From Henricia sp. BOLD:AAB3569 (taxonomy: Eukaryota > Echinodermata > Asteroidea > Spinulosida > Echinasteridae), in assembly GCA_037783545.1 (NCBI GenBank), contig JBBELK010000298.1, positions 4,650,001-4,714,000 on the forward strand: a stretch of 64,000 nt of DNA, written 5' to 3'. Made by a program: the position numbers and the translations under genes. The notes beneath the pieces are model-generated. The model had not been told where the DNA came from, did not search any database, and saw nothing but the letters and a program-made list of their open reading frames with translations. Of this stretch, positions 726 through 61,716 are shown one piece after another (the first letter of the stretch is position 1; every line of letters begins with the position of its first letter).

Positions 726-3077
726 ATGGCATCAGGAAATTGCAAACCCGCCGTGTCGCCAGGGCACTTTATGCTTCCTCTTACCATCAACAAAGACATC
801 AACATTGACAAGACCGCTGTCGAGAAAAAGATCCGAGATCTGGAGCATTTCCGTCGAGTTCGGGTTGGCCGATCTGAGGAGTTAGCCATCCTCAACTTGC
901 AAGGTCTTCTGACGCTCCGCATTCATCAATACAAAGAAGCTCTTGAATTCTTCTATATCGTTCTTGAAAAGGACCTCAAGAATTTGAACGCTTTGGCAAA
1001 CCTCCAGTACGTCTTGGAGAAGCTCTTCAGGCTGACCGAGGCACAGCACTGCAAGGACGAGATACATCGTCTCCTAAAGTCCCAAGAGCCTACAGCCTTT
1101 CCAAAGACGTCCGATCTCGGGCCATCGCAAGATTGCTTGAAAGCCAGATGTCTAGCTGAGCACGCTTTCGCTTTCACCTTCGACGTCTACGATGAAACGG
1201 TTGAATGCAAAAGGTTCGTGGAATCAAACAAGCTGTACCGGATGGCACTGGATTTAGGTGGAAATGAAGTAGCCATTGCAGAAGAAAACGACTGGAAATT
1301 CTGCATCGCAGTCAATGCGCGCAAGCTGTTTGATTCAATGTGGCATAAAAATGAGTTGGATGATGCTCATAAGTACGCTGATACTGCTATTGAGTTATTC
1401 CATGACCTTACTCAGATTGCAGATGATCCAGAGCTTACTTGGGATAGCTGGAAAAACCTCGGGGAAATTTTCAACAAATTTAAAAGAAAGAAGATTATTA
1501 AACGGGTACCTTTTGGACTAAATTTTTTTTGGCACGATCCCGAGAATTGCATGCTAAAAGCCATGGAAGTCTCCCCAAACAACGCGAGACTCTTGACTCA
1601 TTACGCCAAATACCTGTACTTCTCCGACCACGAATTCACGAAGTCCCAAGAATTACTAGAGCAGTCCATCAGACTGGATAGCAGCGAATTTAACTTCTAT
1701 GCATTTTCGACTAGAGCCCTCATAAACATCGTCTACTACATGTATCAGCAGCGATATTTGGCTCAATCGGGGCTCCTTCGACACATTCAATTTGCCAAAA
1801 GCGACCTCGAAACGGCCATTTCTATGCATGTCACGCCGTGGGACTTGGCCCGCCTTGGACAGGTTTATCATCTTCTCGCTAAACACCACACAGAGGAAGA
1901 CACCGAGGTTAGATCCTTGATCGAGGAAGCACTTTTGTACTTCACTAAAGCCGCTGAATGTCAAGATGGCCACAGGATAAGTGACGTAAATCATTCGCGG
2001 GGGTGCTGCCTTTTCGACATCGGAGAGAAACGCTCCGCAATAGGCTGCTTCAAACAAGCCATCGACTGTGAGGCACCGACGAGCGAAGACACCAGGAACT
2101 TTAATGAGTTGCTGCATGTGTACCTGAGCATACTTCACGAGGAGAAACCCATTAAAGACAAGTCCATCCTGGCTGAAACTGCATATTCTCTGAGCAAAGC
2201 TCTCGTAAAGTATGGGCAAGGTAACCTAATTAAATACTGCATCACCAAGTTCAGATCAGAATATGCAAAAGAATTGGCAATGCTGAAAGAATACTGTAAG
2301 GGATTCAGCGAATTCAAGCACCTCACTCCTTTGTTGAAATCAGTAGGGACAGTACGTGTATTTCCCACACGAGGCAGTATTCTAGCTGGGGGAAAGCTAC
2401 AAGACGCATGGGCTAAAACGTACCGCTTAAAGAAAGCTATGCAAGAACACCATGTTAAGGACGCCGATGATCGGGATGTGGAAACCCGGCACACAATGGT
2501 TGGCGCAGAGGGTAGTGACGAGGCCAGCGGCATTGATTCTGATGCGACGTCCGTACAACGTGCTGCAGGAAACGGAGCAGGGGGTGTTAGGGTGGAGGTC
2601 CTCGCTGAGCAACTGGCAAACATTGGCATGAAAAAGCTGATAAGAAAAGCTCCCAAGGAGGCAAGAGTACCCGACTACCTGTACGACTTTTTTGTGGTCT
2701 ACCCGAAGAGTCAGACAGACTGGGTGTCATACGATTTGCTCAACGAGCTGGAAGCCATCCACAAGCTCAAAGGTTGCACTCGTGACAGAGACGCCTTGGC
2801 TGGGACATTGAAGTTGACGAGTGCGATTGAGTTAATGAAGGAAAGTGCCAGCATTTTGCTGATCATCACGGCAGAGTTTGAGAAAGATCGGGAGTGCGAG
2901 GAACTCATGCACCACGCTCTGCAGCTCAGAAAGGCGGGTGATCACACTCGGGTCATTATTCCTATTCGTCGTGGTAACTCGGAAGTCCCCTACGAAATAA
3001 GCACATTTAATGATTTTGATGCTACTGGCGCAGTTGACTGGAGCAAGTTGGCCCTATGTATTGAACAGCAAATATGA
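726..3077 (+). CDS. TPR-TIR protein, intronless paralogue (gene 1)
   Basis: A 783-residue protein in one uninterrupted exon. Residues about 50-560 are helical TPR-like repeats; the first reads SEELAILNLQGLLTLRIHQY, followed by a second helix pair, in the style of TTC22/IFIT proteins. Residues about 649-783 form a TIR domain: strand A YDFFVVYP, box-2-like RDALAGT at 688-694, strand D SILLIIT, then a conserved ECEELMHHAL helix, and a C-terminal VDW near box 3. A charged low-complexity linker (about 570-640) joins them. The start has good context (aagaaATGG) and aligns with the N termini of genes 2 and 3. Known: TPRs bind proteins or RNA; TIR domains signal by self-association and some cleave NAD. 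Inferred: cytosolic innate-immune scaffold or effector. No signal peptide or membrane segment is seen. Unlike its paralogues it has no introns and no cassette-exon equivalent, so it may be a retrocopy or have lost its introns. Confidence 0.88.
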   Translation: MASGNCKPAVSPGHFMLPLTINKDINIDKTAVEKKIRDLEHFRRVRVGRSEELAILNLQGLLTLRIHQYKEALEFFYIVLEKDLKNLNALANLQYVLEKLFRLTEAQHCKDEIHRLLKSQEPTAFPKTSDLGPSQDCLKARCLAEHAFAFTFDVYDETVECKRFVESNKLYRMALDLGGNEVAIAEENDWKFCIAVNARKLFDSMWHKNELDDAHKYADTAIELFHDLTQIADDPELTWDSWKNLGEIFNKFKRKKIIKRVPFGLNFFWHDPENCMLKAMEVSPNNARLLTHYAKYLYFSDHEFTKSQELLEQSIRLDSSEFNFYAFSTRALINIVYYMYQQRYLAQSGLLRHIQFAKSDLETAISMHVTPWDLARLGQVYHLLAKHHTEEDTEVRSLIEEALLYFTKAAECQDGHRISDVNHSRGCCLFDIGEKRSAIGCFKQAIDCEAPTSEDTRNFNELLHVYLSILHEEKPIKDKSILAETAYSLSKALVKYGQGNLIKYCITKFRSEYAKELAMLKEYCKGFSEFKHLTPLLKSVGTVRVFPTRGSILAGGKLQDAWAKTYRLKKAMQEHHVKDADDRDVETRHTMVGAEGSDEASGIDSDATSVQRAAGNGAGGVRVEVLAEQLANIGMKKLIRKAPKEARVPDYLYDFFVVYPKSQTDWVSYDLLNELEAIHKLKGCTRDRDALAGTLKLTSAIELMKESASILLIITAEFEKDRECEELMHHALQLRKAGDHTRVIIPIRRGNSEVPYEISTFNDFDATGAVDWSKLALCIEQQI

Positions 3078-3788: not shown

Positions 3789-4856
3789 ACACCTCAACAA
3801 AAGTAGGTTCCCCTGTAATGATTATATCCCCAAAGTAAATTTCGGAATTACACGAAACTTGGTGTGAATGATTAGTGCAATGCATGGAACGTGCATGTCA
3901 AGTGGTGGGTCCATACCTTATGTCATGCATAAATAAGCAGCATTTAAAGGTGAAATTGACACTTTTCAAAAATTGCAAAATGCAATCAACAATTCCCTTA
4001 TTCTTTTTACACATGACAAGTACAGTTTTGGTCCTCAGTATCTAGTGGTGTTCGTGCACCGTGACTGCACTAAGCAGTTTAACATAAGAAAATGCCACGC
4101 ATGTCCATTTAAGACAGGGCCAATGCCATAGGCCTGCTAGAGACCCTTACACGTAAAACAAGTAGCCCGTAAGATGAGAGTCAGTCCAAATGCATTAAGA
4201 AAATTGCGTCCAAAATTCGAATTGATTGGAGCTGTCGCAGACTTGCCAAGAACTGGTCGACCAAACGTTACTACACTTGCAGACAATCACTTTATGACAA
4301 TGCAAGTCCATACAGGGCAAAAGTGGTCAATGAGCTTCTAGAGATTCAAGAAATTGACTGAATCATATGGCCAGCAAACTCCCCAGATCTCAATCCCATA
4401 GAACATTTGTGGGATCAGATGAAGCAGGCATTTGATCGGAGAACTGATGATCAAACAACACTCAAGGACTTGCCCCAGATGCTGCAGGAGTGGATTACCC
4501 TTCCGCAGCGGAGGATCACCCATCTCATCAACACAGTAGGCCTATGCGTGATCGATGTCATCAGGTGTTAAAAATCACGGTGGTAACGCAAGATACTGAG
4601 GACCAAAACTGTACTTGTCATTTGTGAAAAGAATTGGTGAATAATTTGTTGACTGCATTTTGCAATTTTTGAAAGTGTCAATTTCACCTTTAAAAGCCGC
4701 TTATTCATGCATAACATTAGGGATGCACCACCACAGTACTTTAAATGCACGTTCCATGCATTGCACTAATCATTCACACCAAGTTTCGTGTAATTCCGAA
4801 AATTAGGATATAGGCCCTAAGCATTTATTTAGGGGGTAACTTACTTTGTTGAGACC
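3789..4856 (+). mobile_element. Tc1/mariner-type DNA transposon with long terminal inverted repeats, internally deleted
   Basis: Left end CTCAACAAAAGTAGGTTCCCC (from 3792) is mirrored by TAACTTACTTTGTTGAG at 4838-4854. The inverted arms continue inward for roughly 270 bases (about 3789-4063 against 4590-4856), including matching stretches around GAATGATTAGTGCAATGCAT and GTGAAATTGACACTTT. Between the arms are the two ends of a Tc1-like transposase gene with the catalytic middle missing. The arms differ by many point changes, so the copy is old and cannot move by itself. Confidence 0.8.
4159..4571 (+). pseudogene. Tc1/mariner transposase remnant
   Basis: Translated pieces show the N-terminal helix-turn-helix region (VARKMRVSPNALRKL, then the linker motif RTGRPNVTT) at about 4159-4290. 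In a separate frame segment from 4368 the C-terminal end reads WPANSPDLNPIEHLWDQMK and runs to TAA at 4569-4571. PDLNPIEHLWD is the hallmark around the last catalytic residue of Tc1 transposases. The part that should hold the first two Asp residues of the DDE triad is absent (about 200 codons missing). It lies between the long inverted arms of its own element. Confidence 0.8.
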
Positions 4857-14776: not shown

Positions 14777-16499
14777 ATGGCAGAAACTATGGACTTACCA
14801 CCGGGGCTTTTCCAATTAGATCTTCCTGTCAACAAAGACGACACCGCATACAAAGGCGCCATAGGACCGAAAATGATCGACATCGAACAAGCCTTGGAGG
14901 CACATGTAGGCAAACCCGAAGAACTCGCCCTCCTAAATCTATCGGGTCTCTTCAATTTCCGCCTTGAAAATTACGGAGATGCTGAAGAAAACTTCCAGTC
15001 AGTTCTCAGAAAGGACCCAAACAACCTCAATGCAATTGCTAATTTGCTCTATCTGCTGGAGAAATTGGAGAGAAGCTGGGAAGTAAAACAACTTCGCAAG
15101 AAATATCAGGATCTGATGCAGGCGCCTAATCCGGGGACAAGAGCCAGATGCTTCGCTGAACAGGCGTATGCCTTTTCATTTGGTATCAACGTAGATAGAG
15201 GTGAAAAGGAGAGGCAGTTGAAATCTAACGAGATGTTCTCAACAGCTCTCTCAGAAGCGGGCATTCATGTTGACGAGTCAGAAAAAGACTTCTGGAAGTT
15301 TCACATTGCTATAAATGCCCGCAAAATCTTCAGCAGTTACAACCCCAATCCACAGAGTATGGACAAAATTAACATGAAAAGGGCCGTTACATTGTCCTAT
15401 GAAATAATAAAACGAGAACCTGGTGTGGCGGAATACAAGTGGGAGAGCTGGAGAAACCTAGCTGATACATTTCGCAAGATAAAGAGTAGACCGCATATGT
15501 GGCCTGACGATCTACCACAAGAACTTCGTCAATATCTTGACAAACCAGAAAAATGCATGGAAGAAGCACTTAAATTGGCTCCGAAAGATCCGCATCTTCT
15601 GGCACGGTACGCAAACTTTCTGTATTCGACTGAAAAGAAGCGATTACCAGAGGTCCTGCGATTGTTGGAGAAATCCATTGATATCGACGAAAGTGAACAT
15701 AATTACATTGCCTTCACAACTAGAGGTCAAATTGTTACTAGAAACATGGAGTACAACGTGAAAAACACAGGGGTCGATAATCCAGATTACAGGAGGAGGT
15801 TAAATATGGCAAGAAATGATTTAGAACGTGCGATAAAGTACCGAAATGCCACCTGGGACTTACTGACTATTGCCCGCGTTTACCACCTCTTTGCGTTGTG
15901 TTCGTTAGACGAAACGCCCGAATCCCGGCGAAAATATCTGGGAAAAGAATTAGAGTACCTCACACGAGCACAAGACCGTGAAAAAAAGACCAGGCAAAAG
16001 ACCGCGCTCACAGCCCGTGGACGATTTTATTTTGAATGTGGTGAATATCAAAAGTCAATCGCCTACTATGAGCAGGTTTTAGACATAGTGCATGAAACAT
16101 CTCCCTACACAGGTCATCTCATCAACATGTTCCAAAGTTATTTCTGTCTGCTACGAAATGCACCAAATAGATTACAAATGCATGGGGAGATGGCGAAATG
16201 CTTAAAGCAAGGGATCACTAGGTACGGGACCAGCAAAATCATTGGCGGCCGTTTTAACTCTCTTCTTGAAAAATACAAAGAGGAGGCTTCGATGCTGAGG
16301 CAACACTGTGAAAGCATCCCTGATGGTGGGGCCCTCGTTAAAGTACTGACAAATGAGGAACCTCTTTCACCAGATGCAAAGCCTCTGCAAGATGGTGGAA
16401 GGCTTCAACACATTTGGTTCGGGCCCTCGGACTGCACGGAGGATGCAGCTGGTAATGGCGAGGACGGTTCTTCGGAGAGACCCTTTCCACAAGTCACGG
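14777..16499 (+). CDS. Gene 2 exon 1: TPR array
   Basis: Carries the whole TPR part and ends GTCACGG before the donor GTATGT at 16500. If the intron is not removed, the frame closes after ten more codons (TAG 16526-16528), giving a TPR-only protein of about 583 residues. The last residues before the donor are rich in Gly, Ser, Glu and Asp, as expected of a flexible linker. Confidence 0.85.
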
Positions 16500-19205
16500 G
16501 TATGTTAATAAAATATTTATCTCGTTAGCTTTGATTTGATTTTGACATGAGCTTAGAAGCTCATGTCAAAATCAAATATATTTGGCAACTTTCTGTATTA
16601 AAATGGCTAAGGTAAAAATCAGATGCTTGGATGTTCATGGCTAGTTTCACCCAGGTAAAAGAAATCGGAGACAAACACGTTATTTTTTGCCGCGAATGTA
16701 CGTCAGTGCCAGGGAGAGGGACGTGACGACGTTTTTTTTTCACAAACGTAAACGTAAATAGTTGTGTTAAAAAAAAAACAATTTGTGAATTTTGACGCAA
16801 ACGATGACGAAAATGTCATTGGAATCCCCATTATTGTTTGCTCCCAAGGATTTTAGATCTTACTTATAGGCAGCTAAAGAAGTTGGGGTTTTATTGATAT
16901 GGTACCAATTGAAAAAAATGTCGAGACTTGAGACAGAAATGAGACAAATATTTAATCCCCAAACCTCCAAAGCGCATCTTAGTCGGACAAATTACAGCTT
17001 AAAAAAGGTGTGCGAATCATTCTACTCTTTGATCGTATTTTGCATATGTTTTTATCTATTGCCCATTCTTGGGCACAAATTTAACACAATTTAAGTAATG
17101 CTCTACTTTGAAGTTTAAACACCATGAAATGTATGTCAGTGTCAGTCAGCCAAAAAGGCAATGCATATGCGTATATGACCACTATCACAGCCGTTAAACT
17201 CGAAACTCTTTTTGTACATGTTCTTAACCACGTCGGCCTAGGCAAAGATGGCAGGGCTGGAAAGCAGCCTCTTTCTGAAGAAGCAGCAAAAGAATGGAAT
17301 GACTTCAGGGCTGTTGTTCCAACCGCCGGCGCCGCCAGTGCCGCCGGCGCCGCCAGCAACCAACCGCCAGTCCATTTTCACCAACAAATAGTCATCCAGC
17401 ATCCAACAAATAGTCCAATCATTCTCGGGGCAGGCGTTGGCAACACATTTAATTATGGTACGTGATTTTAAAAATATATAGTTACTCTGCTCGAGGACGA
17501 TCTAACCTTAAAAATTACATCTGGAAGTTAGAGTAGATACTTTTCTCTGTTTAACCAGTCATCACCTTTCAAATAACATTGCCAAAATTTCAAGGTGGAT
17601 TCAGCTTCGATCACTGCAGAGACATTTTTTGGAGCACATAACGTGGGACTTCACACTATTACCCCTCGTCATTGAGATCTTAATCGCAGTCCTTAATTTA
17701 ATGTCATCTTACTGGCGCGTATATACAGCCCTGACTGCCCATTGTGCATGCTCAAACATTGTCCAACGTGTTCAAGCTTGTTCGAAGAAGTTCAAATTCC
17801 AATTTACACGACCTGTACATTTCCACTGAACATTCCCAATTAACACGATCATACTTTTGTTCAAGAACTCCATCCAACAAATGTATGACGATGTTCACAG
17901 AGTCCCAGAGATTGTTCACAAATGTTTTATGAATTTAGTGGATTTTCTTGCAACCTGAAATACCATGTGACCTAATTATGTAATCTATTACAACTTGAAC
18001 ATCGTGCAACATGTTCAAGCTTTTTCGCAGATGTTCGAATTCCCTAGGTGGGGGTTTGGTCACGTTTTTAATGCCCCAGGGTGGGGCATTTGACCCGTGT
18101 ATTTGTATACAAGACGCGCATGTTTTGCACACGAGGGTGAGGATTTTTGACACCTAATTGTTGCCCCAGGGGTGGGAATTTTGTCACAAAAAAGTGACAA
18201 TCCCCACCTCTTAGGTGGGGTAGCCCGGGGGCGGAGGGGTGGGGGAAACAATTGATAGGTGAATTACGGCAAAGTGCCTTTCCCAAGCGTACACACAGCA
18301 TGGACAGATGCCAGCCTGGATTCGAACGGCATGACCTACATATCAAACCAAGTTCAATTGACTGTCAAGATGCTCCACGGGTATCTGTACTCCTACCCCA
18401 TCTGCACCCCATAAATCGTGGTCACATAACTTCCAAACACACTTTAAAAAATTGCAAATCGTCCATAAATTGCCAGTCCCTGACTCATAACAAAACGGAT
18501 AGCCCCACGCCCTCACCCCGTCCTCAAAAATTGCATCAGAAAATGTGTTCTCACTATTGCTCAGACGACTCGGGATTTTTTGTGGCGTTATATCATGTAT
18601 ATGATATTCTTGAGTGTTCTTTTGCATGACTATAAGCTTCATTTTCATTTCAAGCCACAAGCCAACCGGCTGCTCTGGGTGCTGCGACATCGACTGTGCG
18701 CGGACTCGAAGATGGGATGAAGATAGCAGCCCTTGATAGAGAGCTATCATCTCTCCGTAACGTAAAATCAGAGGAAGAACAGAGAGTCACTGCAGGCTTT
18801 AAGTATGACTTCTGTGTGGTGTACCCGTACAGTCAGGGAGACTGGGTGTCTCGTCATCTCCTGAGAGAGTTGGAAGGCATTCGGAAACTGAAAGGATGCA
18901 CCTTTGAAAGAGACGACTTGGCCGGGACCGGCGAGCTGAAGAACGCAGTCGATCTAATGGATGCCAGTGCCAGCATTTTGCTGGTAATCACGGAAGGCTT
19001 CCAGTGGGAGTGCGAGCAATCCATGCACCACGCTCTGCGGCTCAAAAGAGAGGGCGCTCGCAGTCAGGCCATCATCCATATCCGCCGTGATAACTCGGAA
19101 GTCCCGCACGAATTGCCCAAAAATAATGTTTTTGATGCTACTGGTGTAGTTGACTGGAAAAATTTGGCCTCTTCCATCACTATAAACAACCCGAAAGTGC
19201 CCTGA
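14777..19205 (+). CDS. TPR-TIR protein (gene 2), three exons
   Basis: Proposed exons are 14777-16499, 17242-17457 and 18655-19205, giving 829 residues. Donors GTATGT and GTACGT and acceptors CCTAG and TCAAG all leave phase 1, so the frame continues. Residues 1-574 are TPR-like helices (NLSGLFNFRLENYGDAEENF and later SIAYYEQVLD repeats, TTC22/IFIT-like). Residues 575-646 are a cassette with an Ala/Gly patch and a hydrophobic core. Residues 694-829 are a TIR domain with YDFCVVY, RDDLAGT at 732-738, SILLVIT and WECE at 764-767. An upstream in-frame ATG at 14744 exists, but the start at 14777 (ATCATGG) matches gene 3 (MAEPMDLPPPG). Inferred role: cytosolic immune-type scaffold or effector. It is a close paralogue of gene 3; no breaks are seen. 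Confidence 0.85.
16535..16576 (+). other. Conserved RNA hairpin in intron 1 of gene 2
   Basis: Arms of 18 bases, TTTGATTTTGACATGAGC and its exact reverse complement, flank the six-base loop TTAGAA. The hairpin lies 35 bases past the donor of exon 1. The paralogous position in gene 3 (31213-31254) has the same hairpin with one compensated pair change, so the fold may be under selection. It could influence donor use or intron retention. Confidence 0.65.
17242..17457 (+). CDS. Gene 2 exon 2: phase-symmetrical cassette with RHIM/amyloid-like core
   Basis: 216 bases, entering and leaving in phase 1, so skipping it would keep the frame. It encodes an Ala/Gly stretch (GAASAAGAAS, six residues longer than in gene 3) followed by VHFHQQIVIQ and a core IILGAGVGNTFNYG. 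The core shared with gene 3 is LG, two variable residues, VGN, two variable residues, then N and an aromatic, then G. Alternating hydrophobics with G and N resemble RHIM and amyloid-signalling motifs by eye; this is not proven. Acceptor CGGCCTAG and donor GGTACGTGA are conserved in gene 3. Confidence 0.75.
18057..18260. repeat. GC-rich repeat in intron 2 of gene 2
   Basis: Contains GCCCCAGGGTGGGGCA and GGGGAAACAATTGATAGGT words. The latter, together with a CCCCTGGGG-type segment, recurs at about 12765-12965 inside the transposon upstream of the gene. It resembles a dispersed inverted-repeat element fragment; boundaries are not clear. The rest of the 1.2-kb intron shows only short GTTCA-rich repetitive sequence. 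Confidence 0.45.
18655..19205 (+). CDS. Gene 2 exon 3: TIR domain
   Basis: Starts after TTTCATTTCAAG and completes a GCC codon with the last base of the previous exon. After a short Ser/Ala-rich linker and an acidic helix (EDGMKIAALDRELSSL) comes the TIR domain from GFKYDFCVVYP to the end. It keeps the RD of box 2, the strand D hydrophobics, a WECE motif at the helix where NAD-cleaving TIRs carry their Glu, and the C-terminal VVDWKNLA. Stop TGA at 19203-19205. Confidence 0.85.
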
Positions 19206-29463: not shown

Positions 29464-31198
29464 ATGGCAGAACCTATGGACTTACCACCACCGGGGCTTT
29501 TCCAATTAGATCTTCCTGTCAATAAAGAAGACACCGCATACAAAGACGCCATAGGGCCGAAAATGATCGACATCGAACAAGCCTTGGAGGCACATGCAGG
29601 CAAACCCGAAGAACTCGCCCTCCTAAATCTATCGGGTCTCCTCAATTTCCGCCTTGAAAATTACGGAGATGCTGAAGAAATCTTCCAATCGGTTCTCAAA
29701 AAGGATGCAAACAACCTCAATGCAATTGCTAATTTGCTCTATCTGCTAGAGAAACTGGATAGAAGCTGGGAAGTAAAACGACTTCGCAAGAAATATCGGG
29801 ATCTGATGCAGACGCCTAATCCGGGGACAATAGCCAGACGCTTCGCTGAACAGGCGTATGCCTTTTCATTTGGTATCAACGTAGATAGTGGTGAAAAGGA
29901 GAGGCAGTTGAAATCTAACGAGATGTTCTCAAGAGCTCTCTCAGAAGCGGGCAATCATGTTGACGAGTCAGAAAAAGACTTCTGGAAGTTTTACATGGCT
30001 ATAAATGCCCGCAAAATCTTCAACAGTTTCAACCTGAAATCTTTAACTCCCTATCCACAGTGTGTGGAAAATATGAAAAGGGCCGTTACATTGTTCTATG
30101 AAATAATAAAACGAGAACCGGGTGATGCGGAATACAAGTGGGAGAGCTGGAGAAACCTAGCTGATACATTTCGCAAGATAAAGAGTGGACTGCATATGTA
30201 CCCTGACGAATTACCACAAGAACTTCGCCAATATCTTGACAAACCAGAAAAATGCATGAAAGAAGCACTTAAATTGTCCCCAAATGATCCGCATCTTCTG
30301 GCACGCTACGCAAACTTTCTGTATTCGACTGAAAAGAAGCGATTACCAGAGGTCATGCGATTGTTGCAGAAATCCATTGATATTGACGAAAGTGAACATA
30401 ATTACATTGCCTTCACAACTAGAGGTCAAATTGTTACTAGAAACATGGAGTACAACGTGAAAAACACAGGGGTCGATAATCCAGATTACAGGAGGAGGTT
30501 AGAGATGGCAAGAAATGATTTAAAACGTGCGATAAAGTACCGAAATGCCACCTGGGACTTACTGACTATTGCCCGCGTTTACCATCTCTTTGCGTTGTGT
30601 TCGTCAGACGAAACGCGCGAATCCCGGCGAAAATACCTGGAAAAAGAATTGGAGTACCTCACACGAGCACAAGACCGTGAAAAAAAGACGAGGTACAAGA
30701 CCGCGCTCACAGCCCTTGGACGATTTCATTTTGAGTGTGGCGAATATCGAAAGTCAATCGCCTACTATGAGCAGGTTTTAGACGTGGTGCGTAAAACATC
30801 TCCACACACAGGTAACTTCATCAACATGTTTCAAAGTTACTTCTGTCTGCAACGAAATGCATCAAATAAATCACAAATGATTGGAAAGATGGCGGAATGC
30901 TTAAAGCAAGGGATCAATAGGTACGGAATCAGCAAGATCATTAGCGACCATTTTAACTCTCTCCTTCAAAAATACCAGGAGGAGGCTTCGATGCTGAGGC
31001 AATACTGTGAAAGCATCCCTGACAGTGAGGCCCTTGTGGAAGTACTGACAAACGAGGAACCTCTTTCACCAAATGCAAAGCCTCTGCAAGATGGTGGAAG
31101 GCTTCAACACATTTGGGTTGGGTCCTCGGATCGGACGGAGGATGCAGCTGGCACTAGCGAGGACGGTACTTCGGAGAGATCCTTTCCACAAGCCACGG
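29464..31198 (+). CDS. Gene 3 exon 1: TPR array
   Basis: Encodes the TPR-like helices, differing from gene 2 mainly by scattered substitutions and a slightly longer segment after INARKIF. The donor at 31199 is GTATGC. Retaining the intron would add about 33 codons and end at 31297-31299, giving a TPR-only form. Confidence 0.82.
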
Positions 31199-34100
31199 GT
31201 ATGCTAATAACATTTGAATTCGACACGGGCTTAAAAGCTCATGTCGAAATCAAATATCAATGTATTTGCCAACCGTCTGTGTTAAAAAGGCCAAGGTAAA
31301 AAGCAGATGTTTAAATCCAATCGATGGCTAGCTTCATGTTATCTCTTTTCTTTTGCCGCGAATGTACGTCAGTATTTAGGGCCAGGGAGTGGTACGTGTT
31401 TTTTTTCCCACAAATTGTAAATTTTGACGCGAAAGATGACGAAAATATTCACCATATTGTATGCTCCCAAGGATTTGAGATCTTACTTAGGCAGCTGAAG
31501 AAGTTAAGGTTTTATTTATATGGTAATGGTACCAATTGACAAATGCTGCACAAATCTTGAATTATTTGGCCTTTCCTTAAATGTATGTTAAGCCCTGAAT
31601 TCCTTGAAAATGTTGTAGGTATCTTATAAATTTATTGTGTGTGTGTGTCTTGCGCCAAACCTGAGCTTTACTCTGTGGGACAACGGTTGACAGCGTTCCA
31701 AACAAAAGAGGTCTGTCTCGAAAATATCGAGACTGAAACAAGACAAATATTTGATTAACCTCCAAAGCTTATCTTAGTCGGACAAATTACAGCTATAAGA
31801 AACACTCTTTGTGCGAATCATTCTACTCTTGGACCATCTATTCACATTCTTCATCAGATGAATAAATGGACCATCTATTCGTATTCTATCGTCTGAAATC
31901 GCCCGTTCTTTCGCAGAAAACACCTTAGTTTAAGGAATGCTCTACTTAACCATAAAAATCGAAGTTGTCTTTCACTTACTGGCGTGGTATATAGCCACCA
32001 TCACAGCCCGTTAAACTTGAAACTCTTTTTGTATATACTCTGAACCACGACGGCCTAGGCACGGATAGCAGAGCTGGGGAGCAACTTCTTTCTGAAGGAG
32101 CAGCAAAAGAGGCCGTCATTCCAACCACCGGCGCCGCCAGCAACCAAACGCAATTCCATCTTCACATCCGTCAGGCAACACGTACTGTAATCTTCCTTGG
32201 GGAAAGTGTTGGCAACGCTATAAATTTTGGTACGTGATTCCAAAAAATATAGTTACTGTACTCGGGGACGATCTAACCTTGAAAATTACATCTGGAAAAA
32301 GCAGCTACTTTTTTCTGTTTACCAAAGTCATCATCTTTCAAATAGCATTAGCAATAAAATACACATTTTTTATTTCAAGGGGGAATCACTTTTGATCACC
32401 AATATTTACCTTTAGGCCTCCTGGAGTCATTCGGACCGAGTCCGTCGAACGATGGGGGACACTGCTTCTGTCTGTGGCGCAATTTGCATCGCTTTAATAG
32501 CTGACTGGCCTCTCAGTATAGACTCTGCCTGCACTGCTCCGGCTTTGATGGCGCTCCTCCAGAAACATATAGGCCCGTATTCTAAGACATCACTCAACGT
32601 CATCCTCCACTCACACTCCAGTGAGGAGGACTCAAGTGTAACTCAAGGAAAAGGAGAAGGTCTACCTCACCATCATTGAGGTATACCTCAACCTTACGGG
32701 AATAATGACATTTTGTTATTCAAAGAGATTCCTCAAGTTGCAATTGATTGAGGTCAGCCTGCACTGTTATGACTTGTGCTGGCTATTGAACAACAAGTTA
32801 TATAAATGATAATGTGGAATCTACATCACACAGGTCCAACCTTTCATTATCCAAAATCACAGAACCATGAATGAACAATGAAAGGTCAGACCAATTGCCT
32901 TGGTAGCACCGGCCCTGTTATACATTGCACATTCAAAAAGATCTAGGTCGGCCTGGTCGTTCTCTGTGTACCCACTACCAGTGTAGGAACCATGTCAAAC
33001 GCCATGTTTAGACTGACTGAGGAAGTCTCAAGGCAGGTATTGCCCTTCCTCAAGCTTTACTCACAGAGGAACACTTACTTGAGGAAGAGGGAGGTCTTTG
33101 AAATGGAAAATAGGTGAAGTCGACCTCGCACTCAGTGAGTAGCACCTTCTCCTCAATGAGTATGAGGTGGTCCTTAGTGAGGATGAGGAGTTCCTCAGTG
33201 AGTGTGAGTCGAGGAACGTCTTAGAATACGGGCCATAGACTGTGTTTGCTAGTCCCATCCTCTTAAATCAGTGCCCCTTTAACGCACTCCCCGATCGTGC
33301 GTACCGAGGCCCTGTTGAAACCGGCCCCATTTCGCTGGGGAACAAGCGACAGAAATCTTGTCGCCTCTCTAGATCAATCAGGACGCTTGGCAGTGCATTG
33401 CAGGCATTCAAATGTAACGCGCGCATATTGTAAACACGTGCATGCATGTGATACATGATACTCGATAATGCTGGCCGTTGTCCGCGTCGGCGATTGGCTG
33501 CTATTTAAAGCATACAGGGGAATCCGTTCTATTCACGTTGGTCAGCAGGCATCCCTGTTATTAATTTAAAAAACTGCGGAGTAAATAAGATCGTCGCCGG
33601 AAATGTTGGTAGGAATGGGACAGTCATAAGGAACAGAACCCATACCAATAGAATTTCTGGAAAGTATAGAAATCGTTTCTTTACGGCATAACATGACCAA
33701 ATTGATTAAATTACATTAAAATGTCTCGGGCGTGTGTTGGCTGAACACAACAGCCGACTTTACTTCACAGATTTGCGTGGATTTTATAAGGGTATAGACC
33801 TTTAACACGGTGCGGCTATGTCTTTCATTTTCCCCTTATTAAAATGAACGTAACCAAAGCGAGGCTTGCAGAAAAAAAATAGTTCTGTTTGGCTCTGTGT
33901 CGAAAATGTTCATTGTGTGCATCACAATGACATGCGCGCAGCGCGGGGAGTGATTCTCTCAGGGCGTGTTTGTTTCGGACGGATCCAGATTCAGATCGGC
34001 GCATTACCAAGGTGAACTCGTTCACTTCGCGCACATCCTGATCGAGATCTGTGATCTGTGGAATCCTTCTCGAAAGATGGTTGAGCGCTAGATCCAAAAT

Positions 34101-36375
34101 GGCGACGTAAACATCGCGAAGATTTTGTGTGAGTAAAACCGTGTCGTTTCGGTTTTCAGAGGCAACACACGATACAAACAAATTTAGAATACTTGTTTAT
34201 TAACGACAAATGTCGTGGGAGAAATTTGGAACAGAAATTTGACAAATTTGGTAAATAAATTGCAATTCACGTGATTTGAGATCCGAGTTGAGAGCGGTTT
34301 CGTTTGTTTCTGCGCGGTAAAACAGATCGGAATCTGGATTCGGATCTGTCATGAAACAAACACACCCTCTAAACAACAACGGAAGATTGCACGCGCTATC
34401 GCGCGATCGCGCAGACGCACTGATAGTGCCCGGCATACTATGGGGAACAAGACAAAGATGGACGCACCGTGATAAAGGTCTAAAATGTAACGTCGCTTAG
34501 CAGAGTGGAAATTTCCTAAGATCTCAGGATGGTTAGTCCAGGCCGTACAGCTGTAGATCTTCATTTATAGCATCATTCCATCTTTTTTTTGCCGGCCTCT
34601 GTGGCGAGTTGCCAAACACTATCTCGCCAAACACTGTCTCGTGCCCCGACCTGCTTGGGATGCTCGTCCATCAGGTCTACGTCTGGGCACAGGCTAAGAG
34701 AGCTCGTCGCTGATTAGTTAAGGCCCACGATGAATTTCGGTGCGGGACCCCCACGAAGGTTTTTGCTCATTCATAACCACGCGCGGGTAAAGCTCGGAAA
34801 GCTGCACACACCCAGGTGTGAACCCACCTCAGTCCCACCGCGGACGTCCTATTGTTCCTCTTTTGTTTGGACTTGGTTTCTTTGGCGACTGCTCTCATTT
34901 GTTTTGCACACGATTCTAAATCGCGGACGTCCTTGGCAATCGCGGACCCTATTGTTCCTATTGTTAAACGTCCCATTTGAATACAGAAACCCGCGCATTC
35001 ATACTGCCACACACACCAGATGGTCTTTACGAGAAACATGACACATATCTTCTTCGCTTTCATCACATTATTTGTTCTTATTTAGTAACTGGCACATCTT
35101 TGTATAAACAACATGACTCTACAGTAAATAATGGCAGTAACATTCCGCATGAGCAATGAAAACAAGTGGAAAATGGGAACGCACGGAAATATTACACGGA
35201 GGAATGTTACCGCAAGGTCACCGTAACTTCCTGCGAAGTAGCAGAAAAGCAATTGCAAACGCCAGACCCCCCCCCCCCTCAACAATGCATCAGGAAATCT
35301 GTTGCTCTGGATCCAGTCATGGATTAGTGTGGTACCACACCTCAAGGATTAGATAAATCAATGTGTGGATCACTATACACGTTAACGTTTAATTATTAAA
35401 CGTTAACGTGTATAGTGATATTTCCATCTGGTTGAGATCCTTATTTAGTGCAATTTTATAGTCCTTTTCAACGGGACACAAATACCTCACTAATGTTCAC
35501 ACGACATTATTTTTTTGTGGCGTTATACATGCGTTATATCATGTATAGACCCTTTGCACCGGCGGCCATGACAGGGGGCAGGTTTTCAGATTTAAATGAT
35601 GTGACAATAGATCCACAAAGTGCTTACTCGTGCATGGTGCACGATAACAATGCGACTGCCCTGTCATTGCCGCCCATGCAAAGGGTCTATATGATATTCT
35701 TGAGTCTTCTTTCGCATTAATATAAGCTTCGTTTTTATTCCAGCTAGCATGGATCCAGCTAGCAAAACCCACTCATCTGAAAGAGCGGCTCCCCAAAGTG
35801 AACGAGGAGGGAGTACCGACGCTAAAGGCGAAGCCACGGCCGGACCCACAAGCCAACCCACATTCAACCATTCAACCAACCAACCGGCTAATGTGGGTGC
35901 TGCGAATTCATCGAATATGAGCGGACGCGATGATGGGATGAACATAGCAGGTCTTAATAGAGAGCTGTCATCTCTACACGTAAAATCAGAGGAAGAACAG
36001 AGAGTCACTGCAGGCTTTAAGTATGACTTCTGCGTCGTGTGCCCGGAAAGTCAGAGAGACTGGTTGTCTCATAATCTCCTGAGCGAGTTGGAAGATATTC
36101 GGGGACTAAAAGGGTGCACCCCTGGGAGAGCTAGAGACGCCGAGGCTGGGACCTTTAAGCTGACCAACGCGATGGCTCTAATGGACGAAAGTGCCACCAT
36201 TCTGCTGGTCATCGCGAAAGACTTCCAGCTGGAGTGCGAGCAACTCCTCCACCACGCTCTGCAGCGCAAGAGAGAGGGCGACCGCAGTCGGGCTATCATT
36301 CCTATCCGCCGTGATAACTCGGAGGTCCCGGAAGAATTGAGCACAATTAATTCTGTTGATGCTACTGGTATATAG
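29464..36375 (+). CDS. TPR-TIR protein (gene 3), three exons, C terminus cut by a frameshift
   Basis: Proposed exons 29464-31198, 32059-32229 and 35744-36375 give 845 residues. All junctions are phase 1, with donors GTATGC and GTACGT and acceptors CCTAG and TTCCAG. Residues 1-578 are the TPR-like array, nearly identical to gene 2. Residues 579-635 are the cassette with a VIFLGESVGNAINFG core. A longer Ser/Asn/Pro-rich linker follows, with the TIR domain from about 726 (YDFCVVC, RD in an altered GRARDAEAGT box, ILLVIA, LECEQLLHHAL). Two extra bases near 36370 (GGTATATAG where gene 2 has GGTGTAG) create TAG at 36373 and remove the last 18 or so residues of the domain. The starting ATG has ATCATGG context. 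Function is inferred as for gene 2; the truncated TIR may be altered or inactive. Confidence 0.82.
31213..31254 (+). other. Conserved RNA hairpin in intron 1 of gene 3
   Basis: Left arm TTTGAATTCGACACGGGC, loop TTAAAA, right arm GCTCATGTCGAAATCAAA. Against gene 2 there is one compensated change (T-A to C-G), one change to a G-U pair and two mismatches. It begins 15 bases after the donor. Confidence 0.55.
32059..32229 (+). CDS. Gene 3 exon 2: cassette with RHIM/amyloid-like core
   Basis: 171 bases, open in the frame set by exon 1, with no ATG of its own. It is bounded by CGGCCTAG and GGTACGTGA exactly as in gene 2. It encodes GAASNQTQFHLHI and the core VIFLGESVGNAINFG. Relative to gene 2 it lacks the six-residue Ala/Gly expansion and five residues around WNDFR. 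The core is the best conserved part. Confidence 0.72.
32572..33234. mobile_element. MITE in intron 2 of gene 3 (GGCCCGTATTCTAAGAC ends)
   Basis: The left end GGCCCGTATTCTAAGAC is mirrored by GTCTTAGAATACGGGCC. The subterminal regions hold many GTGAGTGTGAGG / CCTCACTCACACTC words. ATA lies next to both ends, a possible 3-bp target duplication (Harbinger-like). About 663 bp, non-coding. Confidence 0.75.
33235..33958. other. Intron 2 of gene 3, unannotated part
   Basis: No second-strand gene or element ends are recognised in this part of the 3.5-kb intron. Confidence 0.4.
33959..34371. mobile_element. MITE in intron 2 of gene 3 (GGGCGTGTTTGTTTC ends)
   Basis: The left end AGGGCGTGTTTGTTTCGGAC and the GATCCAGATTCAGATC word are mirrored at the right by GATCGGAATCTGGATTCGGA and GAAACAAACACACCCTCT. 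About 45-base imperfect arms. No target duplication is clear. Confidence 0.7.
34372..35368. other. Intron 2 of gene 3, unannotated part
   Basis: Contains a short run of C (35267-35277) and no recognisable gene or repeat ends. Short frames look random. Confidence 0.4.
35369..35419. repeat. Perfect 51-bp palindrome
   Basis: Arms of 25 bases, beginning ATCACTATACACGTTAACGT, meet around a single central T and are exact reverse complements. It holds two GTTAAC sites. It lies in intron 2 of gene 3, 325 bases before the TIR exon. It could be the ends of an excised foldback element or a cruciform-forming site; no counterpart was found in the gene 2 intron. Confidence 0.85.
35546..35689. mobile_element. 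144-bp MITE beside the TIR-exon acceptor of gene 3
   Basis: The ends TAGACCCTTTGCACCGGCGG and (reversed) TAGACCCTTTGCATGGGCGG are about 31-base inverted repeats. The gene 2 intron has the intact target ATCATGTATATGATATTCTT at about 18591-18610, so insertion at TA after the duplication is shown directly. It ends 54 bases before the proposed acceptor at 35743 and may overlap the branch-point region. Confidence 0.85.
35744..36375 (+). CDS. Gene 3 exon 3: linker and truncated TIR domain
   Basis: Begins after TTTTTATTCCAG; CT completes a GCT codon, and the frame passes an internal ATG at 35749. The linker (about 75 residues) is longer than in gene 2 and rich in Ser, Thr, Asn and Pro. The TIR domain follows through DATGI and stops at TAG 36373-36375. 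The missing tail (VDWKKLA and onward) is present in the next frame up to TGA at 36429-36431. Confidence 0.82.
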
Positions 36376-57572: not shown

Positions 57573-60500
57573 TTATGTTTGAATCAGTCTTTGTGGCTTC
57601 TTTACTACGCGGCCACTGCGTGTATGGTATGGTTCAGTATCCACTGCCGGCAAGTCAGTGCTAGAGTTATTTCCACTGTGATGTTTGTTCTCAGTAGACT
57701 TGCCCCTAGTCGTCCTCAGTATGGACTTAGGGCCTTGAGGGTTGTGTGGCGGGGTATGTACGCGAACAACTGGCGGGTCTGCAAAGCGAAGTGTTTTTCG
57801 CGTTGGTTCGGTGTCGCGAATATGCACTCTGTTGCGTCGTAAGGTTTGACCATTTGGCATCTGAACAACGAACGATCTCGGCTCTGGGCGAGCATCTTGG
57901 ACTACTGCTGGTGTCCATTTGCCAGAGTGATAGTCTTGAACTGTCACGTGTTGTCCCGGAGCCAGTGATGACAGTTTGCGTACACCACCGCGGTCATGGT
58001 ATTCTTTTTGTTTGTCTTGGCGTTGGGCCAACTTGGAATACACGTCGTCCTTGTCGCGTCTGTCATGGCAAACCTTTGAAGGAAGATTGTCCTTGAGTTT
58101 GCGACCATTAAGAAGCTCTGCGGGCGACGGAAGAGTGCTGTCTATCGGAGTTGTGCGGAGGCATAGGAGCGCAAGGTACGGGTCCATATTGGACTGCTTA
58201 GCCTTTGTCAAGGTCGATTTTACAGTCTGTATCATCCGCTCAATGAAACCATTGCTTCTCGGGTATCGTGGGCTTGACGTGACATGGTCAAAACCCCAGT
58301 CGATGGAGAATTTGCGGTACTCACGACTGTCATACTGCGGGCCATTGTCACTAATGACCTTGGTGGGGATACCCTGCTCGCTGAATATCTGTTTTGTGAG
58401 TGTTACTACTGCTGCACTCGAACACTGTCCACTCACGCGACGTATAAATGGATCCTTCGAATAATAGTCTGCGACAATGAGGTAGTCAGCGTTGTCAAAT
58501 CGGAACAGATCCGTTCCGACAGTCTGCCAGGGACGTTGAGGTATCTCATGAGGTAGAAGAGGCTCATGAGACTGCTTGCGCTGGTGTGTTTGACACACAA
58601 CGCATTTCCCAACTAACCGTTCAATGTCTTTGTTGATGCCTGACCAGTACACGCATGCTTTGGCACGCAGTTGGCATTTGTTAACACCTTGGTGTCCCGC
58701 GTGTATTTTCTCGAGTGTCTCTTGGTGCATGGATTCAGGAATGACGATTCTGTCACCCTTGATGACTAAGCCGTTGTCAACTGACAGTTCGTCTCTACAT
58801 GACCAATAGTGACGAATGCACTTAGGCAGATCCTTGGGATCTTCCGGCCAGCCAACTAAGATTGTCTCAGTCAATGGTCGTAGCACGTTGTCGTTATACG
58901 TTTCTTGCCTGAGCTGGGAAAGTCGAGCTTGGGAGAATTGTATGGCGTAGATTGTCGTATCGAAGTTGATCTGTGGGCCATACGCGGGGTTAAGTCGCGA
59001 CAGAGCATCTGCGAGTAGCAATTCGCGTCCCGGCTTGTACACAATGGTCAGATCATATGGTTGCAACCGCAACATCATACGTTGGAGTCTCGGGGGCGTG
59101 TTTGCGAGGCTTTTGTGTTGGATGTTCTCCAAGGGCTTGTGGTCCGACTCCACAACGAATTTTGCTCCGTAGAGGTAAGTGTGGAATCGTGTACAGCCAA
59201 AAACGACTGCAAGTAACTCACGCTCGATGTTTGCGTATCGTTTTTCGGCGTCCGTCAGGGCTTTGCTCGCGAATGCCACAGGTTTGTTGTTTTGCAGGAG
59301 TGCCGCTCCAAGTCCTTTTGCAGATGCATCGACCTGTAGCACCGTGGGTTGTCGGGGGTTGAAGTGGGTAAGTGTACACTCAGTACCAATCAACGACTTG
59401 ACGTTATTGAATGCCATCTCGTGCGATGGTGTCCACTGCCACTCACTGTCCTTCCGCAGAAGTGCGCGGAGTGTGTCCGTGTGATCAGCGAGTCGGGGGA
59501 GAAACGGCGCAAGGTATTGCACCATGCCCAGGAATTGCTGCAATTCAGTGACATTCTGCGGTGCAGGGAGAGCATGTATGTCTTGCACTTTCTCCGGGTC
59601 GGGGTGCACACCAGAGGCATCATAGAGGCAACCGAAAAACTTAATGCAAGGGGTTCTCACATCGCACTTGTCGAGGTTGAAGATTAGGCCGTACTTGCGA
59701 GCAACTTGCATGAGATTGTGCAAATGTTTATCATGTTCCTCGAATGTCGCCCCGAAGACCGCGATATCGTCCGCGATCCCTAATGTACCAGGACACTGCT
59801 CCAGGATCATGTCCATTTTCTCCTGAAAGATATCCTGGGAGACTTTCAGCCCGAAGGGCAGGCGACGAAACCGGTACCGCCCGAACGGCGAATTGAAAGT
59901 TGTTAAGAGACTGGACTCCTCATCCAGCACAATGCTCCAGTACCCATGTCGCGCGTCCAACTTGCTGAACACCTTGGCGCCGCTGAACTGGTGTGTAATT
60001 TCTTCCAGTGTCGGCGTTTTGTGGTATGTCCGTTTGGAGGCCTTGTTCAGTGCCTGTGGATCAAGGCACACACGGAGACTGCCGTTGGCTTTCCTGCTGA
60101 ATGCCAGTGACGAGACCCAATCTGTGGGCTCTGTGACCTTGACAATGACATTCAGGCCTACCATCCTATCCAGTTCAGCCTTTAGTTCATGCTTGATCTG
60201 GATGGGGTACTTGCGCGGAGGCTGTACGACCGGACATGCGTCCTCTCGTAACGTGACGTGGTATTCACCGGGGAATTTGCCAATCCCAGTGAAACGATCC
60301 GGATATAAGCTGCAGAGGTCGCTCTTTGTCACAATTGGCTGGATAGGGTCGCGTCGCGTTTGCGATGAACGAACACCCACAGAACTATCACTGCGTCGTG
60401 ACGTTTTGCGTATCGCGCAGTTTAGTGTGATAAGGTGGAGTGCTCGTGAAGTCGGAAGTCCGAGAATTGCCGGACCCGCGGTATCGGCGACGAAGAATTC

Positions 60501-61547
60501 CGCATCGAGCCCGTCTGTCTCGCCGTAGCTGCATGGAATTGTGACACACCCATATTGTTGAATGCGGGTTCCGTTGTAGGCAGTGAGAAACGTATTTCGC
60601 GGCGTCGTGAAGCCCGGCTGAGGGTATCCATCTGCATCTAGCGCTCGCGGAAACATGCGTCTGAATGTGCGCAAAGGTAAGATGTTCCCCTGGGCACCGG
60701 TGTCGACTTTGACACTCAGAGTATGCAATCCTGGACGATGTTTCAGTTTGATGCTGAGTGACACGAAAAGTTCATCGCGAGTATCAGATGTACGCTTAGC
60801 GTCGCGACCATGCTGGGCTGTAATGGTGTCGAAAGCGATGTTCTCAAATTGGTCCTGCAGATCCGAAACCTCGTATTCAACTGCGTTTACCTCATTAGAC
60901 TGACGAGGTACAGGTCTAGAGCTCGATTTCCACCGACGACCGCGTTTGGGCGAGTATGATCCTCGTGTACGCGAACGCGAATAGCGAGGAGTTTGTAGCT
61001 TCCGCTTAGTGCCCGCTGTACTCAGGCACATATGTTGCCAGTGTCCTTCTTTACCGCAACTTTTGCATTTCGTCCCATATGCAGGGCATTTCTCGCGAGG
61101 TCGATATGGGTGGCGTCCACCACAGTTTTTGCACTGTCCTCGCGTCATGACTGCATCCACCTTCGCATTCCCTATGTGACTAAGCTGTGCCATGTGCATG
61201 ACACTGACCTCGTGTGCTCGGCAAATGTCCAAGGCGTCTTTCAGCTGCAGCGTTTCATCTTTCCGAAGCAGTTTCTTTTGCACCTCGGAGTATTTCACCC
61301 CAGAGGTAAGAACCTCTATGATCCGTTCATTAAGCGCTGCTTCGTTGGCGAACTGACATTTCATGGCTTTTGCCTTGCATCGCGTGTAAAAATCATCAAC
61401 ACTCTCGCTTTCCGACTGGACGTAACGTTGAAACTCCAGGCGATGTATTCGAAAGTTGTCCTGGGGTTCTATCTGGCTGGAGAATTTGCCCCAAATATTC
61501 TGAGGATCTTGTAGTTCCTCACCTGTTAGTCCCCATGTGTTGTACAT
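57573..61547 (-). CDS. Ty3/Gypsy Gag-Pol polyprotein (1324 residues from the first Met)
   Basis: Domains in order: Gag capsid-like segment (1-130); CCHC zinc knuckle CKSCGKEGHWQHMC at 161-174; aspartic protease with DTGA at 282-285; reverse transcriptase about 450-640 with LDAR (531) and the catalytic IADD at 591-594, a variant of YxDD common in this lineage; RNase H about 735-860 with VDAS, IERE and SDHKP; integrase with zinc-binding HAGH (949-952) and CVVC (982-985), then the DDE triad D1013, D1067 (SDNGPQ) and E1103; C-terminal GPY/F-like segment. It makes the capsid and enzymes for reverse transcription and integration. The frame stays open upstream of this Met to about 61611, where it meets the short Gag-start frame at an A9 run, so the true start is probably 61716. 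No internal stop is seen. Confidence 0.93.
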   Translation of the reverse strand: MYNTWGLTGEELQDPQNIWGKFSSQIEPQDNFRIHRLEFQRYVQSESESVDDFYTRCKAKAMKCQFANEAALNERIIEVLTSGVKYSEVQKKLLRKDETLQLKDALDICRAHEVSVMHMAQLSHIGNAKVDAVMTRGQCKNCGGRHPYRPREKCPAYGTKCKSCGKEGHWQHMCLSTAGTKRKLQTPRYSRSRTRGSYSPKRGRRWKSSSRPVPRQSNEVNAVEYEVSDLQDQFENIAFDTITAQHGRDAKRTSDTRDELFVSLSIKLKHRPGLHTLSVKVDTGAQGNILPLRTFRRMFPRALDADGYPQPGFTTPRNTFLTAYNGTRIQQYGCVTIPCSYGETDGLDAEFFVADTAGPAILGLPTSRALHLITLNCAIRKTSRRSDSSVGVRSSQTRRDPIQPIVTKSDLCSLYPDRFTGIGKFPGEYHVTLREDACPVVQPPRKYPIQIKHELKAELDRMVGLNVIVKVTEPTDWVSSLAFSRKANGSLRVCLDPQALNKASKRTYHKTPTLEEITHQFSGAKVFSKLDARHGYWSIVLDEESSLLTTFNSPFGRYRFRRLPFGLKVSQDIFQEKMDMILEQCPGTLGIADDIAVFGATFEEHDKHLHNLMQVARKYGLIFNLDKCDVRTPCIKFFGCLYDASGVHPDPEKVQDIHALPAPQNVTELQQFLGMVQYLAPFLPRLADHTDTLRALLRKDSEWQWTPSHEMAFNNVKSLIGTECTLTHFNPRQPTVLQVDASAKGLGAALLQNNKPVAFASKALTDAEKRYANIERELLAVVFGCTRFHTYLYGAKFVVESDHKPLENIQHKSLANTPPRLQRMMLRLQPYDLTIVYKPGRELLLADALSRLNPAYGPQINFDTTIYAIQFSQARLSQLRQETYNDNVLRPLTETILVGWPEDPKDLPKCIRHYWSCRDELSVDNGLVIKGDRIVIPESMHQETLEKIHAGHQGVNKCQLRAKACVYWSGINKDIERLVGKCVVCQTHQRKQSHEPLLPHEIPQRPWQTVGTDLFRFDNADYLIVADYYSKDPFIRRVSGQCSSAAVVTLTKQIFSEQGIPTKVISDNGPQYDSREYRKFSIDWGFDHVTSSPRYPRSNGFIERMIQTVKSTLTKAKQSNMDPYLALLCLRTTPIDSTLPSPAELLNGRKLKDNLPSKVCHDRRDKDDVYSKLAQRQDKQKEYHDRGGVRKLSSLAPGQHVTVQDYHSGKWTPAVVQDARPEPRSFVVQMPNGQTLRRNRVHIRDTEPTRKTLRFADPPVVRVHTPPHNPQGPKSILRTTRGKSTENKHHSGNNSSTDLPAVDTEPYHTRSGRVVKKPQRLIQT

Positions 61548-61596
61548 GCGGAGTCCCTCCTTGCCAGACCACAGTATGATGTAATTGTGCTGATCT

Positions 61597-61716
61597 TCAG
61601 CCGCGATTTTTTTTTACCGTAAACCACATTTGTGCAGTTTGTTTGAAGTCCTTGTAAGCTTGGGGCCTGTCTGCACCGTCCCAGTCCATTTTGGGGTGAG
61701 GTATTGAGTCAGCCAT
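61597..61716 (-). pseudogene. Start of Gag, separated by a homopolymer frameshift
   Basis: A 39-codon frame beginning MADSIPHPKMDWDG and stopping just after an A9 run (61607-61615 on the plus strand as T9). Removing one base would join it to the main frame, so this is either a homopolymer insertion in the genome or a sequencing or assembly error. A programmed +1 shift so early in Gag would be unusual. Confidence 0.75.

Follow-up and report, generated by a model that had tools for sequence, protein, structure and literature searches.

Proteins that combine TPR repeats with a TIR domain are a listed class in invertebrates, catalogued in oyster (PMC4346834) and Aplysia (PMC9334734), and the compared descriptions of these proteins make no mention of a separate, duplicable linker exon with the conserved core described below; no report of such an exon was found in the available portions of the open-licence literature. 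Here we analyse a 64,000-nucleotide stretch of DNA from the sea star Henricia sp. (the window; C298:4650001-4714000), in which TPR repeats and a TIR likewise occur together in one gene, the joining of exons in genes 2 and 3 being predicted from splice signals. Exon 2 of these two genes, which lies between the TPR and TIR parts, is a variant on this already listed class, and a sequence-only reading of the window had likened its short core to RHIM and to other amyloid signalling motifs. Like the RHIM of RIPK1, RIPK3, ZBP1 and TRIF, the last of which also carries a TIR, the core is a short hydrophobic-x-hydrophobic-G element with Asn. Insect cRHIMs (PGRP-LC, PGRP-LE and IMD) occur in different proteins and, compared by their description in the available text of PMC9531809, loosely resemble it, with diverged cores that keep Val and Gly and mostly lack Gln. 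The fungal HET-s, PP and sigma motifs and the bacterial BASS motifs, as described in the accessible parts of PMC7889193, PMC5485727 and PMC8086366, likewise place a short motif bearing Gly and Asn in TPR- or TIR-linked proteins.

Exon structures throughout are predicted from splice signals and open frames (Table 1), and genome searches covered 740.7 Mb in 2104 contigs. In genes 2 and 3 the coordinates of exon 2, its sizes of 216 and 171 nt, and its entry and exit in phase 1 are as the sequence-only reading had placed them, and the exon has an AG acceptor and a GT donor; gene 2 exon 1 supplies 574 complete codons before its phase-1 donor. The same reading gave the core as LG-xx-VGN-xx-N-aromatic-G. 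Up to the aromatic residue this is correct for both genes (LGAGVGNTFNY in gene 2 and LGESVGNAINF in gene 3), but the last Gly is intron read-through: it arises solely from GGT across the donor, and after joining the junction codon is GCC or GCT, encoding Ala in both genes. The read-through Gly was also carried in our exon 2 genome-search queries and in alignment A1, whose invariant last column carries no meaning. Gene 1 lacks exon 2, as had been claimed, but its absence there is not evidence of skipping because gene 1 belongs to a different subfamily of paralogues and consists of one exon, with 31% identity to the TPR exon of gene 2. The TPR region appears similar in style to that of TTC22, a protein that is not known to have a TIR.

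Table 1. Predicted features of the TPR-TIR genes, with positions counted from the first nucleotide of the window
Feature	Position	Strand	Basis
Gene 2 exon 1, TPR region	14777..16499	+	Open frame from ATG; TPR_2 36.4 bits (cut-off 27)
Gene 2 exon 2, modular linker exon	17242..17457	+	216 nt, phase 1-1, AG/GT, length divisible by three, open frame
Gene 2 exon 2, N-terminal conserved patch KDGRAGKQPLSEEAAKE	17244..17294	+	13-copy alignment
Gene 2 exon 2, conserved core PVHFHQQIVIQHPTNSPIILGAGVGNTFNY	17367..17457	+	Copy comparison, alignment, constraint
Gene 2 exon 3, short linker then TIR	18655..19205	+	TIR_2 18.1 bits (below cut-off 28); paralogue profile
Gene 3 exon 1, TPR region, phase-1 donor	29464..31198	+	Open frame, splice signal
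Gene 3 exon 2	32059..32229	+	171 nt, phase 1-1, AG/GT
Gene 3 exon 2, conserved core QFHLHIRQATRTVIFLGESVGNAINF	32151..32229	+	Copy comparison, alignment
Gene 3 exon 3, longer linker then TIR	35744..36375	+	TIR frame stops earlier than in gene 2
Gene 1, single-exon TPR-TIR paralogue, other subfamily, without exon 2 module	726..3077	+	TIR_2 30.3 bits (cut-off 28)

Compared with gene 2, the early end of the gene 3 TIR frame, at window positions 36370-36375, costs gene 3 the last conserved segment. Elsewhere in the window, intron 2 of gene 3 contains an inverted repeat, ggcccgtattctaagac ... gtcttagaatacgggcc (32572-33235), that looks like a short transposon by eye, and a long single frame of 1346 amino acids on the minus strand (57573-61613) resembles, also by eye, a gypsy-type retroelement polyprotein.

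Exon 2 is repeated along a single contig. A whole-genome search with the gene 2 exon peptide returned 13 places, gene 2 exon 2 itself and 12 further copies, all on contig C298, and every one of the 13 has intact AG/GT sites, phase 1-1 and a length of 171-216 nt that is divisible by three. The gene 2 TPR exon, searched in translation, had 24 matches. Among them are ten gene-2-type genes (identity at least 80%) within C298:4602-4790 kb, of which one is split into two pieces. Eight of the ten contain exon 2, amounting to ten copies, with three in the gene at 4623 kb (C298:4623754-4629746), where they stand in tandem and in frame, 176 and 255 nt apart, with splice sites intact. The genes at 4775 and 4786 kb lack the exon. 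Both align with their neighbours on either side of the gap (main pieces 84-94% identical), and exon 2 was therefore deleted inside the intron. Both also carry an in-frame stop in exon 3 upstream of the TIR, and in one of them exon 1 is split over two frames; loss of the core from other paralogues, which the sequence-only reading took to speak against its proposal if rapid, was seen solely in these two damaged genes. The remaining three copies (4730, 4850 and 3864 kb) have no adjoining gene-2-type TPR exon; that at 4730 kb has a TIR exon. The solitary minus-strand copy at 4850 kb, which sits between two frames of RING/TRIM-like appearance to the eye (C298:4842448-4853647, minus strand), is taken for a displaced exon. 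Inspection by eye of the linkers of more distant TPR-TIR frames at seven places, gene 1 and six others, revealed no exon 2 element. The claim that the TPR-TIR linker module is optional survives in an evolutionary sense, with 0, 1 or 3 copies per gene, and concerns genes, not mRNA.

As to the mRNA, the reading frame of genes 2 and 3 is open both with and without exon 2, which bears out the earlier description of the exon as frame-neutral. Phase-symmetric exons are common, and phase symmetry alone is no evidence of skipping. The exon 2 acceptors (n=13) have a mean pyrimidine content of 0.61 and a T content of 0.28; exon 3 acceptors (n=10) range over 0.70-0.75 pyrimidine and 0.35-0.64 T, a set in which those at 4613 and 4740 kb were measured over a longer stretch, and the eight of ten that are strictly comparable give 0.70-0.75 and 0.35-0.60. 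The poorer tract at exon 2 would be compatible with regulated inclusion.

The exon has a conserved N-terminal patch and a conserved core. Near the N terminus, alignment columns Q8, L10, S11 and K18 are the same in 13/13 copies. The core element, 23-30 residues long, runs from V-H-x-H, sometimes with an insert, through I, a His/Thr/Asn turn and three hydrophobic residues to G-x-S/G-V-G/A-N-T-F/I-N-Y/F. Its G64 and N69 are invariant, as are H48 and Q42; V67, N72 and an aromatic residue at 73 are each found in 12 of 13 copies, L63 in 11 (F in two) and G68 in 8 (A in four, R in one). Most copies show a V-H-x-H-I alternation, and columns 61-64 read hydrophobic-[IF]-[LF]-G, without Gln, in all 13. 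The core had been put forward as the part kept while the linkers diverged; it is not the best-kept part of the exon. Mean pairwise identity is 0.86 over the first 45 nt and 0.77 over the last 60 nt, length varies inside the core as well (columns 49-52 and 55-60), and dN/dS is highest there: by a simple counting method it is 0.75 for the exon over all 13 copies, with 0.62 in the N-terminal block, 0.69 in the middle and 0.89 in the core. Among eight gene-matched copies, exon 2 gives 0.66, exon 1 gives 0.57 and exon 3 gives 0.61. Exon 2 is coding and constrained about as much as its flanking exons, in a fast-evolving family, and by dN/dS its core is not unusually constrained.

The high dN/dS values of the exon and core are what one would look for if exon 2 were simply a disordered spacer, of little consequence in its length, its core being kept mainly by shared ancestry and exchange along the array. 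An AlphaFold2 model of gene 2 exon 2 alone agrees with a spacer in being mostly without regular structure (mean pLDDT 60.7, pTM 0.21, a weak helix at residues 12-24 and no strand). A model of such low confidence says little about amyloids. Pairwise identities also suggest exchange along the array, at least for exon 1, and some pairs of copies share near-identical long flanks (0.99 upstream for gene 2 and the 4616 kb copy, for example), so recent exchange between genes has taken place in some parts. Against a plain spacer stand four residues (G64, N69, H48 and Q42) that are invariant in 13 copies while the surrounding introns diverge: mean pairwise identity, gaps counted, reaches 0.83 and 0.77 over the 20 nt of the two splice sites and 0.73 within the exon, but drops to 0.42 upstream and 0.30 downstream at a distance of 100-200 nt. 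Hydrophobic character is retained too, with 12 of 14 kinds of replacement at nine hydrophobic columns being hydrophobic when 6.9 were expected (P 0.005, for columns picked after seeing the alignment). With the further observation that exon 2 tracks the TIR exon, we consider a plain spacer doubtful.

Exon 2 varies together with the TIR exon. Across eight genes, with the three-copy gene represented by its first copy, exon 2 identity correlates with that of the TIR exon (r 0.67, Mantel p 0.006), and no correlation is seen with that of the TPR exon (r -0.11, p 0.58); TPR-exon and TIR-exon identities are likewise uncorrelated (r 0.14, p 0.28). The 4602 kb gene illustrates the pattern: its exon 1 is 96% identical to that of gene 3, whereas exon 2 reaches 77% and the TIR 80%. 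The TPR exons (window 14777-16499 and 29464-31198, and their paralogues) are 87-96% identical over 28 pairs, and are often closer to one another than are the exon 2 and TIR parts. From these identities the TPR exons look homogenised, as by gene conversion, while exon 2 and the TIR appear to stay together. Derivation of exon 2 from the linker of exon 3 was considered and is unsupported (p 0.48 and 0.07).

A profile of nine paralogue TIRs found TLR and MyD88 TIRs as its best PDB matches (E about 1e-11); 39 PDB sequences matched up to E 0.01, with TLR15/TLR2 and MyD88 at the top and SARM1 not among the 39. By profile, therefore, the predicted domain is classed as a TLR/MyD88-type TIR. In alignment A2, compared with TLRs by eye and in an uncertain register, the Glu of the TLR 'YEL' faces S, L, F or A in 9/9 rows, and this column, subject to the same uncertainty of register, would favour a scaffold TIR rather than an NAD-cleaving one. 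The TPR-TIR genes of this array are likely immune genes.

Kinship of the core with RHIM, suggested by the sequence-only reading, is not supported. The RHIM tetrad has the consensus [IV]-Q-[ILVC]-G, from which columns 61-64 depart in 13/13 copies by having no Gln; IQIG and VQVG both occur in the available text of PMC9531809. The Pfam RHIM profile (PF12721), which the earlier reading had proposed as a check, was run over the whole genome and gave four sub-threshold matches, none at any exon 2 copy; nor did it match the exon and core peptides up to E 10, in searches where HMMER filtering can lose very weak matches. In local alignments with two RHIM stretches, one from RIPK3 and the other from RIPK1, eleven core peptides scored no better than their own shuffles (p 0.19-0.81), and a PDB profile search with the eleven cores returned 15 sequences up to E 10 that included no RHIM; its best match, the C-terminal peptide of alpha-1-antitrypsin (E 0.054), was taken as chance. 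RHIM membership of exon 2 is accordingly rejected, and for RHIM the lack of motif similarity that the sequence-only reading counted among its refuting observations does hold. At C651:43528-43575 and C594:657548-657595 the genome also holds a near-identical pair of Ser-rich frames with MVQVGDNT, close to the RHIM tetrad, scoring 16.6 bits where the Pfam cut-off is 20.

An amyloid from a different family could well fail the RHIM tests, because the amyloid signalling motifs of bacteria and fungi have diverged too far for homology to be noticeable (in the available text of PMC8086366) and mosquito cRHIMs keep the core Val and Gly with only one having Gln, and gave a thioflavin T signal in the cells expressing them (in the corresponding part of PMC9531809). 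On such an account the core would belong to a new, non-RHIM family of functional amyloid signalling motifs; once activation exposes it, it would template cross-beta polymers that concentrate the TIRs, with one or three copies tuning nucleation. The V-H-x-H-I alternation of most copies, the hydrophobic-x-hydrophobic-G tetrad of all 13, the invariant N69 and the N-x-aromatic tail would suit this role, although the cRHIM-style tetrad is a pattern too loose to show kinship. Against it, Pfam scans of two exon 2 peptides and the eleven core peptides found no family up to E 10, the profiles for HET-s, Ses_B/PP and NACHT_sigma (fungal amyloid signalling motifs, according to the portion of PMC12261475 available) included, in searches whose HMMER filters may drop very weak matches. 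A degenerate-pattern scan of bacterial and archaeal genomes matched nine stretches, none confirmed as a relative. Aggregation propensity is unremarkable, exceeding shuffles at 0.05 in one copy of 13 (p 0.043), and was dropped as support. Fungal and bacterial systems pair a receptor with an effector that shares the motif, whereas no such pair, and no partner gene or gene of another architecture carrying the motif, emerged here from whole-genome queries of 72 and 28 residues; the 28-residue query, taken to E 10, found just the 13 places already known, a search in which diverged partners could be missed. We regard the amyloid account as unlikely.

A DNA pattern for V[GA]NT[FI]N[YF] matched the genome 79 times forward and 44 times in reverse (control 0). 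Among the 100 matches listed, 68 by hand count were a single word, GTCGGCAACACAATTAATTTTG, and eight were exon 2 copies. The word recurs at dozens of dispersed places, for example at C9:2017459. At two other pattern places that were read, one with and one without GTCGGCAACACAATTAATTTTG, the open frame spans no more than some 30-40 residues and no link to exon 2 was found by blastn; GTCGGCAACACAATTAATTTTG is therefore taken to be, apparently, a non-coding repeat.

That the core is instead a docking short linear motif for some other protein, unrelated to self-assembly and triplicated into three docking sites, would sit well with a short conserved patch of variable copy number in a largely unstructured linker, but no known motif was identified and alternating hydrophobics are probably more usual in strand-forming patches, which leaves this very unlikely.

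Exon 2 is a real, constrained and duplicable linker exon in a tandem TPR-TIR array, and it is not recognisably RHIM. The reading that we tentatively prefer as a whole is that of a modular tether with a conserved TIR-proximal interaction patch that helps to cluster or dock the TIR. Exon 2 is a phase-symmetric, duplicable coding module that lies shortly before the TIR in a single subfamily of the tandem TPR-TIR genes, and it supplies a flexible Ala/Gly/Pro/Ser tether of variable length together with the short conserved N-terminal patch and the beta-prone-looking core of 23-30 residues. Pairing either with itself or with some partner, the core would most likely act as a TIR-proximal patch through which TIRs come together once the TPR part is engaged, and a copy number of 0, 1 or 3 would set valency. 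The anatomy, copies, phase, constraint, loss, triplication and TIR covariation are shown by the genes themselves; self-association, and any use made of skipping, are inferred. In favour of the tether with its interaction patch are splice sites and phase that stay intact in 13/13 copies despite whole-codon length changes, the constraint on the exon, its covariation with the TIR, its triplication and a TIR like those of TLR/MyD88. Weighing against it are a low-confidence model that supports no defined element, aggregation above shuffles in 1/13 copies, the highest dN/dS together with indels in the core, the lack of any gene of other architecture among the genome matches, and 3/13 copies without a TPR exon of the same type.

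Section 10 of PMC7889193, as available, asks as an open question whether animals have any signalling amyloid besides RHIM. It is quite unlikely, though it would bear on that question, that the phase-symmetric exon 2 carries a new, non-RHIM animal amyloid motif and that the number of its copies (0, 1 or 3), and possibly their inclusion, sets the polymerisation valency of TPR-TIR immune proteins. Placed beside the TIR, the exon offers a compact test case: the conserved element makes a peptide of some 26 residues, and nature provides genes with one copy, with three, and with the exon lost. If it proves not to be an amyloid, exon 2 still shows how an array of genes can drop or multiply a linker in a signalling protein and keep the reading frame unbroken.
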